Source: Phreatobacter sp. | Lineage (GTDB): Bacteria > Pseudomonadota > Alphaproteobacteria > Rhizobiales > Phreatobacteraceae | DNA length: 64,000 nucleotides | Direction of reading: 5' to 3' | NCBI RefSeq assembly: GCF_027532945.1 | Contig: NZ_JAPZTZ010000018.1 | Location: forward strand, 1 to 64,000 | Shown: in pieces, positions 33,148 to 61,552 of the stretch | Layout: every line of letters starts with the position of its first letter | How positions within the stretch are numbered: position 1 is the first letter of the stretch | Made by a program: the position numbers and the translations under genes | The notes under the pieces: model-generated | Seen by the model: the letters and a program-made list of their open reading frames with translations, nothing else | Databases searched by the model: none | What the model was told of the DNA's origin: nothing

Positions 33148-34470
33148 TCAGCGGCCGCCGCGGATCATCTTCAGCACGGCCGACTTGGCAGAGGGCTTCT
33201 CGGCTGCCGGCTTCGCCGCGGTCTTGGACCCCTGCGCCTTGCGATAGGCGTGGGTGCGCATGAAATCCATGACGCGCGGGGCAATGTCGGCGCGGAAGCG
33301 CGAGCCGTTGAACACGCCGTAATGGCCGACCGCCGGCTGCAGATGGTGGTGGCGCATGTCCTCGGGGATGGAGGTGGCGAGGCCATGGGCCGCCAGCGTC
33401 TGGCCGCCGCCGGTGATGTCGTCCTTCTCGCCCTCGACGGTGAGAAGAGCCACGCGCCGGATGGCCTTCGGGTCCACCGGCCGGTCGCGGTGCATCATGA
33501 TGCCGCGCGGCAGGTGGTGCTCGACGAAGACCCGCTCGATGGTCTGCAGGTAGAACTCGGCGGTCAGGTCCATCACCGCCAGATACTCGTCGTAGAACTC
33601 GCGGTGCTTCTGGGCGCCGTCGCCGTCGCCCTTCACCAGGTTGCGGAACAGCTCGCGATGGGCGTCGACATGGCGGTCGAGGTTCATCGACATGAAGCCG
33701 TTAATCTGCAGGAAGCCCGGATAGACCGGCCGCATCATGCCGGGATGCGGGAACGGCACCGTGGTGATGACGTTGCGGCGGAACCAGTCGGTGCCGCGCT
33801 CTTCCGCCAGCTTGTTGACGGCGGTCGGGTTCGACCGTGTGTCGATCGGCCCGCCCATGAGGGTCAGCGTCGTCGGCACATAGGGGTCGTCCTCGGCCTC
33901 CATGCGGGCGACCGCCGCAAAGACCGGCACGGCCGGCTGGCAGACGGCCATGACATGGGTGTCGGGGCCGAGGAAATGCAGCATGGAGACGACGTAGTCG
34001 ACATAGTCGTCGAGGTCGAAGCGGCCCTCAGCCATCGGCACCATCCGGGCATCGGCCCAGTCGGTGATGAAGACCTCGTGGTTCGGCAGGAAGGTGTCGA
34101 CCGTGCCGCGCAGCAGCGTGGCGTAGTGGCCGGACATCGGCGCGACGATCAGCACCTTCGGGTCGGCCTTGCGGCCGCGCGGCAGGGCGCGCTGGAAATG
34201 GATGAGGTCGCAGAAGGGGCGCTTCCACACGACCTGCTCGGTCACCGCCACCCGCTCGCCGCCGACGAGGGCGGTGGGCAGGTTGAAGCCGGGCTTGCCG
34301 TAGCGCCGCGTCGCCCGCTCGAAGAGCTCGGCGGCGGCGGCCATCTGCTTGGCCATGGGCAGGTGGGAGAAGGGATTGACCGGGTTGTTCAGCGCCAGCT
34401 TGGTCGCATCTGCCATCGCCCGGTAGGGCGAAAGCATGGCATGGGTCGCTTCATAGAAGTGGTAGAGCAC
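33148..34470 (-). CDS. phaZ: Intracellular polyhydroxyalkanoate depolymerase
   Basis: This 440-residue enzyme mobilises stored polyhydroxybutyrate. The modified lipase box with a Cys nucleophile is seen as AVCQPAVP (Cys177). WADARMVPMAEGRFDLDDYVDYV, GGPIDTR and LQPAVGHYGVFNGSRF, with the catalytic His, also fit the intracellular PhaZ group of Ralstonia and rhizobia. The start codon is GTG at 34470, preceded by CGGAGGCATTGC on the minus strand. The C-terminus is a Lys/Ala-rich tail (KTAAKPAAEKPSAK), possibly a granule or DNA contact. A perfect TTAA-N7-TTAA site lies about 173 nt upstream. The polymerase phaC is not in the window. Confidence 0.95.
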   Translation of the reverse strand: MLYHFYEATHAMLSPYRAMADATKLALNNPVNPFSHLPMAKQMAAAAELFERATRRYGKPGFNLPTALVGGERVAVTEQVVWKRPFCDLIHFQRALPRGRKADPKVLIVAPMSGHYATLLRGTVDTFLPNHEVFITDWADARMVPMAEGRFDLDDYVDYVVSMLHFLGPDTHVMAVCQPAVPVFAAVARMEAEDDPYVPTTLTLMGGPIDTRSNPTAVNKLAEERGTDWFRRNVITTVPFPHPGMMRPVYPGFLQINGFMSMNLDRHVDAHRELFRNLVKGDGDGAQKHREFYDEYLAVMDLTAEFYLQTIERVFVEHHLPRGIMMHRDRPVDPKAIRRVALLTVEGEKDDITGGGQTLAAHGLATSIPEDMRHHHLQPAVGHYGVFNGSRFRADIAPRVMDFMRTHAYRKAQGSKTAAKPAAEKPSAKSAVLKMIRGGR

Positions 34471-34642
34471 GCAATGCCTCCGAAGGGTGGGCCCGCGATG
34501 ACGTCGACCGGGTCCGGCGGGATCCCGGGCCTTCAGGGCGGAGACGCGTCACCGGCACGCGAGGTTCCCGGTTTGCTGCACTGCCGAAATTTGTAACCTG
34601 CTGATGACAGCTTGGGCAATCCCCAGCCTGTGGGACACCGGG

Positions 34643-34657
34643 TTAACCGGTGCTTAA
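34643..34657. promoter_or_regulatory. Perfect CtrA-type box (TTAA-N7-TTAA) upstream of phaZ
   Basis: The site reads TTAACCGGTGCTTAA, followed by C on the plus strand; the minus strand also reads TTAA-N7-TTAAC. It matches the full CtrA consensus of alphaproteobacteria. TTAA is rare in this G+C-rich window. It sits in the 233-bp gap between phaZ (minus, downstream) and the stop of the ABC permease. CtrA control is inferred. Confidence 0.6.
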
Positions 34658-34703: not shown

Positions 34704-35501
34704 TCACTCGCCGCTGGAGAGCAGCGAGCCGGCATCGCGCGCCTTTTCCAGCAGCGCTGCGAAGGCGAAGGCTGCAATGGCGATCCAGATGATGTTGAGG
34801 ACCGTCGCATAGGCGAGGAGGTCGAGCCGCAGCACGCCTTGCGACAGCACCGCCCGCATCCCCTCGAAGACATGCGTCGGCGGCAGGGCAAGCGCCAGCG
34901 GCTTCATCCAGCCGGGCAGGACGCTCAAGGGGTAGTAGACGCAGCAGAGCGGCCAGAAGACGAACATGATGGTCCAGGCGAGGCTCTCGGCCCCGAGCCC
35001 GTGCCGCAGGATGAGGCCGCAGACGACAAGGCCGACCGCCCATCCCGTGATCACCAGCAGGGCGAAGAAGGCGGCAAAGCCGATGCCGAGACGGGCGAGG
35101 TCGAAGCCGAAGAAGGCCACCGCCAGGATCACCGTCGGGATCATCCCGACGGCCAGGCGCAGGAGGCTCATGGTCATCAGTGCCGCGACGAACTCGATGG
35201 GCCTCAAGGGGCTCATCAGGATGTTGCCGAGATTGCGCGACCAGACCTCCTCCAGGAACGACACGGAGAAGCCGATCTGCCCGCGGAACAGCACCTCCCA
35301 GAGCAGCAGCCCCGAGACCAGCGCGCCGCCGACGAACAGCGTCTGGTTGGTCGAGCCCATGGCATAAGTCTGCAGGAAGCCCCAGGTCAGCAGGTTGAGG
35401 ATCGGCCAGTAGATGAGCTCGAGCAGCCGCGGCCAGGACGAAACCAGCAGATAGAGGTAGCGCAGGCACAGGGCCGCGACGCGGGTCACCGAGAAGGTCA
35501 T
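34704..35501 (-). CDS. ABC-2 type transporter permease
   Basis: This 265-residue membrane protein has six hydrophobic segments and no nucleotide-binding motif. LYLLVSSWPRLLELIYWPILNLLTWGF, the SFLEEVWSRNLGNILMSPLRP cytoplasmic segment and the late WPLCCVYYPLSVLPGWMKPLALALPPTHVFEGMR are typical of the NodJ/DrrB exporter permeases. With the ATPase at 36163 it should form an exporter, with cargo unknown. Its start overlaps the stop of the TrpF-like gene by 4 nt, so the three genes form a tight operon. Confidence 0.92.
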   Translation of the reverse strand: MTFSVTRVAALCLRYLYLLVSSWPRLLELIYWPILNLLTWGFLQTYAMGSTNQTLFVGGALVSGLLLWEVLFRGQIGFSVSFLEEVWSRNLGNILMSPLRPIEFVAALMTMSLLRLAVGMIPTVILAVAFFGFDLARLGIGFAAFFALLVITGWAVGLVVCGLILRHGLGAESLAWTIMFVFWPLCCVYYPLSVLPGWMKPLALALPPTHVFEGMRAVLSQGVLRLDLLAYATVLNIIWIAIAAFAFAALLEKARDAGSLLSSGE

Positions 35502-36166
35502 GCCGCCGACACCGCGTCCATGAAGGCGGAGAGCTTGGCCGGATCGAGATGGCCGCCGGTCCGCACCCCCGAGCAGAGGTCGACGCCGAAGGGCCTGACC
35601 GTGCGGATGGCCTCGCCGACATTGGCGGGGGTGAGCCCGCCGGCGAGGAAGACCGGCCGCGACGAGCGCGCGACGAAGGCGCGGCTCACATCCCAGTCAT
35701 GGGTGCGGCCGGTGCCGCCGAGCTCGGTCATCGTGCCGCCCGACTTGCCGGAATCGAGCAGGAAGGCATGCACATAGGCCTCGTAGCGCGGGATGAGGTC
35801 CAGCACCTGCGGCCCTTCCACGTGGATCACCTGGACACGGCGGACGAGGGGGGCTGCCACCGCCACCACGGCAAGTTCGGAAGGGTCGACATGGTCGACG
35901 ACCTGGACCGTGTTGATGCCGCAATGGCGGGCGTGCTCGGCCATCGCCGCGCCGGTGAGATGAGCGGAGAGCAGGAAGGTCGCCAAAGGCGGCGGCACCT
36001 CGCCGGCAATGGCACGGATCGCCGCGTCGTCGACGAAGCCCGGCCCGGACTGCCGCGCCGCGACGAAGCCGAGCGCATCGGCGCCGGCATCGATCGCCAT
36101 GCGCGCCTCCGCAGCGGAGGAGATGCAGCAGATCTTCACGCGGGTGCGGCGGCCGGACCAGCTCAT
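35498..36166 (-). CDS. TrpF (phosphoribosylanthranilate isomerase)-like protein
   Basis: This 222-residue TIM-barrel protein resembles TrpF. The general-base Cys13 is in VKICCIS (canonical KICGLT), the general-acid Asp138 is in AFLLDSGKSGGTMTELGGTG, and the C-terminal phosphate-binding half is well kept (FLAGGLTPANVGEAIRTV, GVDLCSGVRTG). However, the SPR segment that contacts the anthranilate moiety is replaced by SGPG, and the QLHG motif by VQVVDHVDP. It therefore looks like a paralogue with a changed pocket rather than the tryptophan enzyme. It is locked by 4-nt overlaps between an ABC ATPase gene and an ABC permease gene. No other trp gene is nearby. Confidence 0.85.
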   Translation of the reverse strand: MSWSGRRTRVKICCISSAAEARMAIDAGADALGFVAARQSGPGFVDDAAIRAIAGEVPPPLATFLLSAHLTGAAMAEHARHCGINTVQVVDHVDPSELAVVAVAAPLVRRVQVIHVEGPQVLDLIPRYEAYVHAFLLDSGKSGGTMTELGGTGRTHDWDVSRAFVARSSRPVFLAGGLTPANVGEAIRTVRPFGVDLCSGVRTGGHLDPAKLSAFMDAVSAA

Positions 36167-57622: not shown

Positions 57623-58117
57623 TCGGGGTCTATCTTCTGCTGTCTTCAGGGACCGGCCGGCGCGGGCGCGCGGCCGGTCCTGTCGTTTTTGGGACAAGCG
57701 ATGACACTGTTGTCGGTCCGTCACGGAAGCCAGCCGCCTCCGGCAGAGGATAGTCGTGGCCACGGCCATCCCCCTCTTCCTCCGATCAGGTCGAGGTCGC
57801 GATGATCCCACCAGCTCTGCTTGGGGAAATTCCCGAATAACCCAACGGAAGGTCGGCAAAGAAGCCGCTTATCAATGAAAGAAAGAGATGCTTAATGCCG
57901 ATGATCACGATATTAGCGCCAAAGAAACTACGTTTTACATGCCGAAAGGTGTATTTAACCACGTTCTAGACATGTGGGAAATCAGGCATTTCTCGACGTC
58001 GATTTAACGAACGGACAAGAGGTGCTTGCTAGGGTCCATCCAGTTCGAACGTGTCAAAACAAATTGGCCGGCGGACAGCGCCCGCAAGGCGCAACGTGGA
58101 CACCAGGAGTCAATCCC
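57623..58117 (+). other. Long inter-pilin region
   Basis: The first 70 bases carry the terminator of the first pilin. The stretch from about 57830 to 58020 is clearly richer in A+T than its surroundings and holds several TTAA words (near 57892, 57955 and 58003), but none forms a full TTAA-N7-TTAA site. It is probably the promoter region of the second pilin. No convincing gene was found. Confidence 0.6.
57650..57690 (+). terminator. Terminator after the first pilin
   Basis: GGACCGGCCG and CGGCCGGTCC form a perfect 10-bp stem around an 11-nt G+C loop, followed by TGTCGTTTTT. This is a typical factor-independent terminator for an abundant small transcript. Confidence 0.9.
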
Positions 58118-58282
58118 ATGAAGACCCTCTTCGCTCGCTTCGCCCGTGACAACTCGGGCGCCACCGCCATCGAGTACGGCCTGATCGCCGCCGGCATCGC
58201 CGCCGTCGTTATCACCGCCGTCTACAACCTCGGTTCGAAGGTCAACACCACCTTCACCAACATCAACACCGCCATGAAGTGA
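58118..58282 (+). CDS. Flp/Tad pilin (second copy)
   Basis: This 54-residue prepilin begins MKTLFARFARDNSG and continues ATAIEYGLIAAGIAAVVITAV, with the same Gly14 cleavage point and Glu19-Tyr20 pair as the first copy. It differs mainly in the C-terminal third (NLGSKVNTTFTNINTAMK). A CCAGGAGTCAATCCC site precedes the ATG. It lies directly before the cpa genes and is followed by two tandem hairpins, as expected for a highly expressed pilin ahead of lower-expressed assembly genes. Confidence 0.95.
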   Translation: MKTLFARFARDNSGATAIEYGLIAAGIAAVVITAVYNLGSKVNTTFTNINTAMK

Positions 58283-58586: not shown

Positions 58587-59093
58587 ATGTTCGAGTTCGC
58601 CATCCTGCTCGTTTTCCCCGCGATGATGGCCTTCGCCGCGGCGAGCGACCTCTTCACCATGACCATCTCGAACCGGGTCTCGCTGATCCTGGTTGCCGGC
58701 TTCATGGTCCTCGCCATCGTCACCGGCATGAGCTGGCCGACCATCGGCATGCACGTGGCCGCCGGCTTCCTTGTTCTCTCCATCGGTTTCATCTGCTTCG
58801 CATTCGGCTGGATGGGTGGTGGCGACGCCAAGCTCGCCGCATCGACGGCGCTGTGGCTCGGCTGGTCGCAACTGCTCGACTACGCCATCTGGGCCTCGCT
58901 CTTCGGCGGCGTGCTGACCCTCGGACTGCTGGCGCTGCGCGGCGCGCCGCTGCATCCGCCCTTCCTCATGCGCGAGGGCTGGTACGCCCGGATCACCGAC
59001 GAGAAGACCGGCATCCCCTACGGAATCGCGCTCGCCGCGGCCGGGCTCATCCTCTATCCTTCGAGCTTCTGGATGACCGGCGCGCTCCATTGA
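58587..59093 (+). CDS. cpaA: Flp prepilin peptidase
   Basis: CpaA (168 residues) is the aspartic A24 peptidase that removes the leader from Flp prepilins and TadE/F-like pseudopilins. The catalytic Asp pair is Asp21 (AASDLFTMTISN) and Asp80 (GWMGGGDAKLAAS). It has several membrane helices and lacks the N-terminal methylase part, as is usual for this branch. The start follows TTCCGGAGGACGTC, a strong site. It processes the two pilins encoded just upstream. Confidence 0.95.
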   Translation: MFEFAILLVFPAMMAFAAASDLFTMTISNRVSLILVAGFMVLAIVTGMSWPTIGMHVAAGFLVLSIGFICFAFGWMGGGDAKLAASTALWLGWSQLLDYAIWASLFGGVLTLGLLALRGAPLHPPFLMREGWYARITDEKTGIPYGIALAAAGLILYPSSFWMTGALH

Positions 59094-59110: not shown

Positions 59111-59125
59111 TTGACCTCTCGTTAA
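59111..59125. promoter_or_regulatory. Near-consensus CtrA-type box 1 upstream of cpaB
   Basis: TTGA-N7-TTAA, one base off the TTAA-N7-TTAA consensus, 104 nt upstream of the cpaB start. It pairs with a second site at 59146-59160. CtrA is known to control pilus genes in Caulobacter; here it is inferred. Confidence 0.5.
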
Positions 59126-59145: not shown

Positions 59146-59160
59146 TTAACCATAAGTTGA
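59146..59160. promoter_or_regulatory. Near-consensus CtrA-type box 2 upstream of cpaB
   Basis: TTAA-N7-TTGA, one base off consensus and the mirror of box 1, 69 nt upstream of the cpaB start. It lies in A+T-rich DNA between cpaA and cpaB. Confidence 0.5.
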
Positions 59161-59228: not shown

Positions 59229-60080
59229 ATGCGTCTGAAGCCTGCACAGATAGTCGTCATCGCCGTCGCGCTGGTCTCCGGCGGCGTCGCCATGCTGTTG
59301 ATGCCCGACCGCCGCGGTCCCGAGCCCGTCGCCCAGCCCCAGGTGGCCGCTCCCGCGCCGCAGATCGCCACCGTCGAGGTTCTCGTCGCCGCCGCCGACC
59401 TGCCGCTCGGCAAGATCATCCTGCCCTCCGACGTCTCCTGGCGGCGCTGGCCCGAGGAGGCCGGCACCGGCAGCTTCGTCGTGCGTCGCACCGGCGAAAC
59501 GGGCGAGAAGTCGCTCGACGAGGTGATCGGCTCCATCGTCCGCACCACCTTCGCCACCGGCGAGCCCATCCGCCCCGCCCGCATCGTCAAGGGCAACCGC
59601 GGCTTCATGTCGGCGATCCTGACCCCGGGCATGCGCGCCATTGCTGCCCCCATCGACGATCCCTCCCGCGGCGCCGGCGCCTTCATCCTGCCGAACGACC
59701 GCGTCGACGTGATCCTCGCCCGCCGCATCAACAACCAGGCGGCCCAGGCCGAGGGCATCACCCATTCGACCTCGACCGTGCTGCGCAACGTCCGCGTGCT
59801 CGCCGTCGACCAGACCGTCGAGGAGCGCGGTGGCGAGAAGACCATCGTCGGCCGCACCGCCACCCTCGAACTGACCCCGGCCCAGGCCGAGACCCTGGCC
59901 CTCGCCCGTGAACTCGGCACGCTGTCGCTGTCCCTGCGCAGCCTCGCCGATGCCTCCGCCTCCAACCTTGCCGGCGAAGGCGCCGGCAATGGCGAGGCGC
60001 TGTTCGGCAACGGCGAAGGCCACATCACCATCGTCCGCCACGGCGTGCGTTCCGCCGGCGGCGGGCAGGGACCGGAGTGA
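59229..60080 (+). CDS. cpaB: Flp pilus assembly protein CpaB
   Basis: CpaB (283 residues; RcpC/CpaB family) is a periplasmic assembly component with an N-terminal signal-anchor (IVVIAVALVSGGVAMLLM). A SAF-type domain follows (VEVLVAAADLPLGKIILPSDVSWRRWPEE), then FMSAILTPGMRAIAAPIDDPSRGAGAFILPNDRVDVIL, the family signature. The ATG at 59229 lies after GAGGGTCCGTGGG. It begins a possible second transcription unit of the locus, since two CtrA-like boxes lie just upstream. Confidence 0.95.
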   Translation: MRLKPAQIVVIAVALVSGGVAMLLMPDRRGPEPVAQPQVAAPAPQIATVEVLVAAADLPLGKIILPSDVSWRRWPEEAGTGSFVVRRTGETGEKSLDEVIGSIVRTTFATGEPIRPARIVKGNRGFMSAILTPGMRAIAAPIDDPSRGAGAFILPNDRVDVILARRINNQAAQAEGITHSTSTVLRNVRVLAVDQTVEERGGEKTIVGRTATLELTPAQAETLALARELGTLSLSLRSLADASASNLAGEGAGNGEALFGNGEGHITIVRHGVRSAGGGQGPE

Positions 60081-60085
60081 GGACC

Positions 60086-61552
60086 ATGACGTTCCCGAAA
60101 ACCAGGCTCCCGATGTCCAGCATGTGGCCCAAGGCGGGCATGATCCTCGTCGCCGCGCTCGTCGCCGTGGCGGCGCTGGCACCGCCTGTCGCCGCCCAGC
60201 AGAGCACGGCGGTGCGCCAGCAGCGGCCGCTGACCGCCGGCGCCAGCCCCATCACGCTGGGCGTCGGCAAGTCGCTCCCCGTGGAGCTGCCGCGTGACGC
60301 CCGCGACGTCATCGTCGCCAATCCGGCCATCGCCAATGCCGTCGTCCGCTCGGCGCGCCGCGCCTTCCTTATCGGCGTCGCCGTCGGCCAGACCAACGTC
60401 TTCTTCCTCGATGCCGAGGGCCGGCAGATCGCCGCCTACGACATCGAGGTCGGCCGCGACCTCGTCGGCCTGCGCCAGACGCTGCGCTCCGCCCTGCCGC
60501 ATGGCGATATCGAGGTCCGCTCGGTCAATGACAGCGTCGTGGTCTCCGGCTCGGTCGCCACCCCGCTTGAGGCGCAGCAGGCCATCGACATCGCCACCAA
60601 GCTCGTCGGCGACGAGAAGAAGGTGGTCAACGCCATCGCCATCCGCGGCCGCGACCAGGTCCACCTGAAGGTCACCGTCTCCGAGGTGCAGCGCACCGCC
60701 ATCAAGCAGCTCGGCGTCAACCTCGCGGCCTTCGACCCGACCTCGACCCTCACCGGCGCCTCGGGCAACCTCGGCAATGCCGGCGGCTTCGTCTATGGCC
60801 TCCTCACCTCCGGCAGCTACAACGCCACCGGCACCGCGCCCGCCAATTCGGGCGTCGTCGGCACCCGCGTCGGCAACAACGTCTTCACCTCGACCATCCG
60901 CGCCTTCGAGGAGCACGGTCTCGTGCGCACGCTCGCCGAGCCGACGCTGACGGCGATCTCCGGCGAACAGGCGAAGTTCCTCGCCGGTGGCGAGTTCCCG
61001 GTGCCGACCGGCCGCGACCTCACCGGCAATGTCACCATCGAGTTCAAGCCCTTCGGTATCGGCCTGGCCTTCACCCCGATTGTCCTGTCTGAGGGCCGAA
61101 TCAGCCTGCGTGTCGGCGTCGAGGTGAGTGAGATCGACAACCAGCTCACCGTCCAGCTCTCCAACGTCACGGTCCGCGGCCTGCGTACCCGCCGCGCCGA
61201 CACGACGATCGAGCTGCCCTCGGGCGGCACGATGGTCATGGCCGGCCTCCTCCAGGAGCAGACCCGCCAGAACATCTCCGGCACCCCCGGCCTCCTCAAC
61301 GTGCCGGTGCTCGGCGCGCTGTTCCGCTCGCGCGACTACCAGCGCGGCCAGACCGAGCTCGTGGTCATGGTGACGCCCTACATCGTCCGCCCGGCCTCGG
61401 CCAACCAGCTCGCCCGTCCCGATGACAACCTGCGGGACGCCTCCGATCCTGCCGGCATCCTCATCGGCCGCCTCAACCGCATCTACGGCTCGGGCCAGCC
61501 GCCGGCCCATCGTGGTCGCTTCAACGGCCCCGTGGGGTTCAACCGTGACTGA
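60086..61552 (+). CDS. cpaC: Flp pilus outer-membrane secretin CpaC
   Basis: CpaC (488 residues) forms the outer-membrane channel for the pilus. It has a signal peptide (ending APPVAAQ), the pil_N domain (SLPVELPRDARDVIVANPAIANAVV, LDAEGRQIAAYDIEVGRD), a BON-like part, and the secretin core. The core has FTSTIRAFEEHGLVRTLAEPTLTAISGEQAKFLAGGEFPVP and LPSGGTMVMAGLLQEQTRQN. I chose ATG 60086, since GGAGTGAGG lies upstream; a GTG at 60077 is possible. cpaD follows after 28 nt. Confidence 0.96.
   Translation: MTFPKTRLPMSSMWPKAGMILVAALVAVAALAPPVAAQQSTAVRQQRPLTAGASPITLGVGKSLPVELPRDARDVIVANPAIANAVVRSARRAFLIGVAVGQTNVFFLDAEGRQIAAYDIEVGRDLVGLRQTLRSALPHGDIEVRSVNDSVVVSGSVATPLEAQQAIDIATKLVGDEKKVVNAIAIRGRDQVHLKVTVSEVQRTAIKQLGVNLAAFDPTSTLTGASGNLGNAGGFVYGLLTSGSYNATGTAPANSGVVGTRVGNNVFTSTIRAFEEHGLVRTLAEPTLTAISGEQAKFLAGGEFPVPTGRDLTGNVTIEFKPFGIGLAFTPIVLSEGRISLRVGVEVSEIDNQLTVQLSNVTVRGLRTRRADTTIELPSGGTMVMAGLLQEQTRQNISGTPGLLNVPVLGALFRSRDYQRGQTELVVMVTPYIVRPASANQLARPDDNLRDASDPAGILIGRLNRIYGSGQPPAHRGRFNGPVGFNRD

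Follow-up and report, generated by a model that had tools for sequence, protein, structure and literature searches.

A CtrA-type box upstream of the polyhydroxybutyrate depolymerase gene phaZ throughout one genus of Alphaproteobacteria

CtrA is the cell-cycle master regulator of alphaproteobacteria. Here we describe a site of a known kind before an unusual target: as judged from sequence, a CtrA-type box lies upstream of phaZ, the gene for an intracellular polyhydroxybutyrate (PHB) depolymerase, throughout the genus Phreatobacter. We consider it probable (roughly 0.6) that this is a working CtrA box, at which a dimer placed about 66 bp upstream of a PhaR-repressed sigma-70 start would modulate phaZ, with PHB breakdown tracking CtrA activity besides the level of PHB.

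The box upstream of phaZ and the CtrA system of the genome

In the window (the whole stretch of 64,000 nt that was analysed), the box TTAACCGGTGCTTAA occupies positions 34643–34657 on the minus strand, exactly where the initial annotation had placed a perfect CtrA-type site, and reads TTAAGCACCGGTTAAC on the strand of phaZ. It comprises a promoter-proximal half-site, GTTAAC (34642–34647, minus strand), referred to below as the anchor, and a distal half-site, TTAA (34654–34657, minus strand). The box is intergenic, in a gap of 233 nt flanked by an ABC-2 permease gene (34704–35501, PF01061), which ends at 34704, and by the GTG start codon of phaZ (33148–34470, 440 amino acids) at 34470; both genes are on the minus strand. 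The identification of the downstream gene as a PHA depolymerase is upheld by a match to PF06850 (PHB_depo_C, E 1.6e-96), and its start codon, backed by a GGAGG Shine-Dalgarno sequence conserved in 12 of 12 congeners, lies 172 nt downstream of the box, a distance earlier put at about 173 nt. On the far side of the permease gene, a PRA-isomerase (TrpF-like) gene (35498–36166) separates the permease gene of the ABC-2 transporter from its ATPase gene.

A pattern search of all 64,000 nt returned TTAACCGGTGCTTAA as the single perfect TTAA-N7-TTAA, so that the claim of uniqueness made for the non-coding DNA extends to the entire window. Dinucleotide shuffles of the window contained a mean of 0.01 perfect copies, with a match in one shuffle of 100, in keeping with the rough reckoning of far fewer than one copy in 64 kb. 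The G+C content, guessed at two-thirds, is 68.6%. TTAA itself, described as rare, is indeed infrequent (10 copies), but no more so than composition predicts (12.5 expected); its scarcity follows from the high G+C, with no further cause. The CtrA full-site consensus is often followed by a C, and the box reads TTAAC on both strands.

Pattern searches across the 4.13-Mb genome identified 21 TTAA-N7-TTAA sites, versus 16 for ten other spacings between 3 and 13 taken together (0–6 each) and five for a reversed control pattern; 11 congener genomes contain 17–22 sites each. Genes adjoining the other 20 boxes include a flbD-like sigma-54 activator, flhA, fliX and flgI, a weak FlbT match and a weak FliO match, an ABC ATPase beside a zinc-ribbon protein (ftsE-like), an AMIN/Amidase_3 protein, a divergent polysaccharide deacetylase, and outer-membrane beta-barrel proteins. 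These neighbours, mostly flagellar, envelope and division genes, are a typical CtrA target set. The genome also encodes CtrA, 82% identical to the Caulobacter protein, with residues 148–201 of the DNA-binding domain identical. Because the other boxes precede such genes and the DNA-binding domain of CtrA is intact, we regard the CtrA-box system of this genome as genuine.

With a weight matrix built from 19 of the other genomic boxes, the phaZ box scores 24.0, compared with 19.9–25.8 for the other genomic boxes; unrelated sequences in the window reach at most 10.0. Taken together, the genome-wide spacing signature, the target set, the matrix score, the conserved CtrA and the 7-nt spacing kept across the genus give the term 'CtrA-type site' good in silico support.

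The second-best matrix score in the window, 17.5, belongs to TTAACCATAAGTTGA at 59146, upstream of cpaB. The tad pilus cluster to which cpaB belongs is a classic CtrA target in Caulobacter. Here it encodes an Flp pilin (58118–58282), a prepilin peptidase (58587–59093), CpaB (59229–60080) and a secretin (60077–61552), with two one-mismatch CtrA-type boxes upstream of cpaB (TTGACCTCTCGTTAA, 59111–59125, and TTAACCATAAGTTGA, 59146–59160); three copies of TTAA before the Flp pilin gene (57892–58007) are possibly CtrA half-sites. Elsewhere in the genome, two perfect boxes 38 bp apart (G000:C9:15085–15137) lie between ETF-QO-like and BTLCP peptidase genes, and this pair is kept in all three congeners checked.

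The predicted phaZ promoter and its PhaR operator

When the phaZ upstream regions of 12 congeners are aligned, five conserved islands stand out: the Shine-Dalgarno sequence, a PhaR operator, the blocks TTACAAA and ATTGC, and the anchor GTTAAC, which ranks 12th of 228 six-base windows in the intergenic region.

As read from these upstream sequences, the main conserved, order-wide control of phaZ is the PhaR operator, an element absent from the initial annotation. The PhaR (AniA) operator of this species, GGCAGTGCAGCA (34574–34585, minus strand), agrees at 11 of 12 positions with the consensus TGCRNYGCASMA (PMC6201568) and overlaps the predicted start of transcription. An operator is found upstream of phaZ in 12 of 12 congeners, and among orthologue upstream regions of the order it is perfect in 38 of 95 (0.9 expected) and within one mismatch in 80 of 95 (10 expected). 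The genome encodes PhaR (PF07879, 106.5 bits); in Bradyrhizobium and Sinorhizobium, PhaR is a repressor of phaZ or binds to the phaZ promoter. The same genome carries a second, shorter phaZ paralogue (G000:C34:15087–16283, 46% identical), with a PhaR-like site, CGCAGCGCAGCA, upstream and no TTAA in its upstream region.

The TTACAAA block contains a putative −10 element, TTACAA (34591–34596, minus strand), and the ATTGC block a putative −35 element, TTGCCC (34614–34619, minus strand), a weak sigma-70 match 17 nt from the −10; a simple promoter scan of the phaZ upstream region called no promoter. From these elements transcription is predicted to start near 34584, which would put the centre of the box at about −66; in those species where the second half-site lies on the proximal side of the anchor, the centre would fall at about −55. 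In Caulobacter, CtrA activates from full sites at −35 and represses from half-sites at −10 (PMC4287350); a box at about −66 would argue against repression by promoter blocking and favour activation from farther upstream. A CtrA promoter using the box as its own −35 element was also considered and rejected, since the 12-congener alignment contains no conserved −10 at a suitable distance.

Conservation of the box and alternative explanations

The anchor has an intact TTAA in 11 of 12 congeners, the exception being G009, in which it is TTCA. The distal TTAA is perfect in two of the 12, namely this species and its sister, and is TTCA in five more; in the remaining five, including G009, the partner lies on the proximal side of the anchor, as TTCA or TTAG, both of the form TTMR. 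Allowing one mismatch, a TTAA partner is therefore found exactly 7 nt from the anchor in 12 of 12 congeners, seven distal and five proximal, versus three genome-hits in total at gaps of 2–6 and 8–15; in this intergenic DNA, TTAA-like 4-mers have a background frequency of 0.013 per position. The test for a 7-nt partner was framed after the pattern had been seen and, the 12 congeners being related, the pattern represents two or three independent events. A change of side shifts the centre of the box by 11 bp, approximately one helical turn, which would leave it on the same face of the DNA.

Matrix scores of the phaZ box are strong in two species, moderate (13.9–17.7) in eight, and at background (about 7) in two. 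The sister species, G006, has two phaZ copies (on C11 and C21, 99% and 98% identical to that of the window), both with a perfect box in which spacer bases differ. Perfect counterparts of the other 20 boxes occur at the orthologous region for 18 in G006, 15 in G008 and 14 in G007, as assigned via flanking similarity rather than base-by-base alignment. Most of these boxes are perfect even in the more distant congeners, which places the phaZ box among the less constrained of the set. The conservation of anchor and spacing across the genus nonetheless supports a function for it.

Beyond the genus, no perfect box was found upstream of phaZ orthologues, in either a first set (0 of 95) or a further, independent one (0 of 64). 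One-mismatch boxes occur in 10 of 95 (2–7 at other spacings) and four of 64 (1–5), which is not clearly above other spacings. In one set of 85 loci, four have an N7 box 45–85 nt upstream of the PhaR operator, compared with 0.4 per other spacing; order-wide conservation is not claimed, because an independent set gave two of 46 versus 0–2 at other spacings. Conservation of the site before phaZ orthologues, which had been proposed as a check, is borne out inside the genus, in the form of a degenerate box, but not outside it, with no perfect copy in about 160 sequences.

How much the box contributes to phaZ expression is the point on which the most serious rival explanation turns. CtrA could bind the box with little or no effect on phaZ, leaving PhaR and the PHB level alone in control, as the order-wide operator counts given above and the position of the box, upstream of the usual −35 location and decayed in some congeners, would allow. 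We judge this unlikely, though the best placed of the alternatives, since a bound site with no function should not retain an anchor and an exact 7-nt partner across a genus.

Chance is less probable still. On this explanation TTAA-N7-TTAA is accidental and the conserved GTTAAC is something else, for example an upstream promoter element; it draws on the restriction of the perfect box to two sister species, the lack of a box in orthologues beyond the genus, and the non-independence of the 12 congeners. It has to contend with the 0.01 perfect boxes expected per window and with an N7 partner in every congener where nearly all other gaps have none, a pattern for which a post hoc calculation, with two or three independent lineages, gives a probability of approximately 6e-4 to 2e-5.

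Two further explanations appear very improbable. The box might belong to an RNA hairpin (CACCGG-GTTAA-CCGGTG) acting as a terminator for the permease transcript or as an attenuator of phaZ, both genes being on one strand; a 41-nt RNA folds at −14.6 kcal/mol (z −2.4) in this species, but there is no T run and no terminator-like site at the box, and in four folded congener sequences z ranges from 0.05 to −1.8 with differing pairings while the TTAA-N7 pattern persists, and the hairpin was rejected as a fold of this species not kept in congeners. Equally improbable is use of the box by a different regulator with a TTAA-N7-TTAA-like site: a consensus match names no protein, and MucR and SciP have been reported at CtrA promoters (PMC4287350), but the other boxes of this genome lie at typical CtrA genes and the genome encodes CtrA with its known recognition domain.

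Proposed control of phaZ and comparison with known systems

Under the preferred reading, that of a working CtrA box, a CtrA dimer would occupy the site, at about −66 relative to the predicted phaZ transcription start, PhaR would hold phaZ off while PHB is scarce, and CtrA would tune the promoter with the cell cycle. The sign of this effect is most likely upstream activation, which we take to be somewhat likelier than repression; its timing would follow CtrA activity. CtrA modulation of a PhaR-controlled phaZ promoter is most likely a genus-level addition to the CtrA regulon. The initial annotation had raised the possibility that use of stored PHB is tied to the cell cycle; with a box present before phaZ and kept throughout the genus, such a tie is plausible. 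Against it weigh the position of the box, away from the −35 element of the conserved promoter, its restriction to this genus, and the dominance of PhaR among the conserved operators of phaZ. More tentatively, the genus may have wired PHB mobilisation directly to CtrA beside PhaR, around a fixed anchor whose partner half-site changed from one side to the other, a shift of the dimer by one helical turn with its phase kept.

If CtrA does act at phaZ, the burning of stored carbon would depend on the cell cycle in addition to the PHB level. Storage metabolism and division would then be directly linked in an alphaproteobacterium, a connection for which we found no earlier description. The phaZ box would also offer a clear natural case in which a half-site of a CtrA box has turned over, and with it a means to study how metabolic targets enter and leave the CtrA regulon. 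A literature survey, covering the main texts of CtrA papers, revealed no report of CtrA control of PHB or phaZ and no mention of phaZ in those texts, and the combination of a PhaR operator with a CtrA-type box at phaZ was not found in the papers surveyed.

The phaZ box can be compared with two known systems. With the CtrA full sites of Caulobacter crescentus, Hyphomonas neptunium and Methylosinus sporium it shares consensus, spacing and flanking C; as expected of such a site, it is intergenic, in a genome that encodes CtrA and whose other copies precede flagellar, envelope and division genes. It differs from them in being centred at about −66 from the predicted start rather than at −35, in having a carbon-storage gene as its target, and in being perfect in two sister species only, five congeners having the second half-site on the opposite side of the anchor. 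With the PhaR/AniA control described in Bradyrhizobium diazoefficiens, Sinorhizobium meliloti and Rhodobacter sphaeroides, the phaZ promoter shares the TGCRNYGCASMA operator, here in a repressor layout over the predicted start and in a genome that encodes PhaR; in contrast to those systems, phaZ in this genus has a further element, a CtrA-type box, on the upstream side of the operator.
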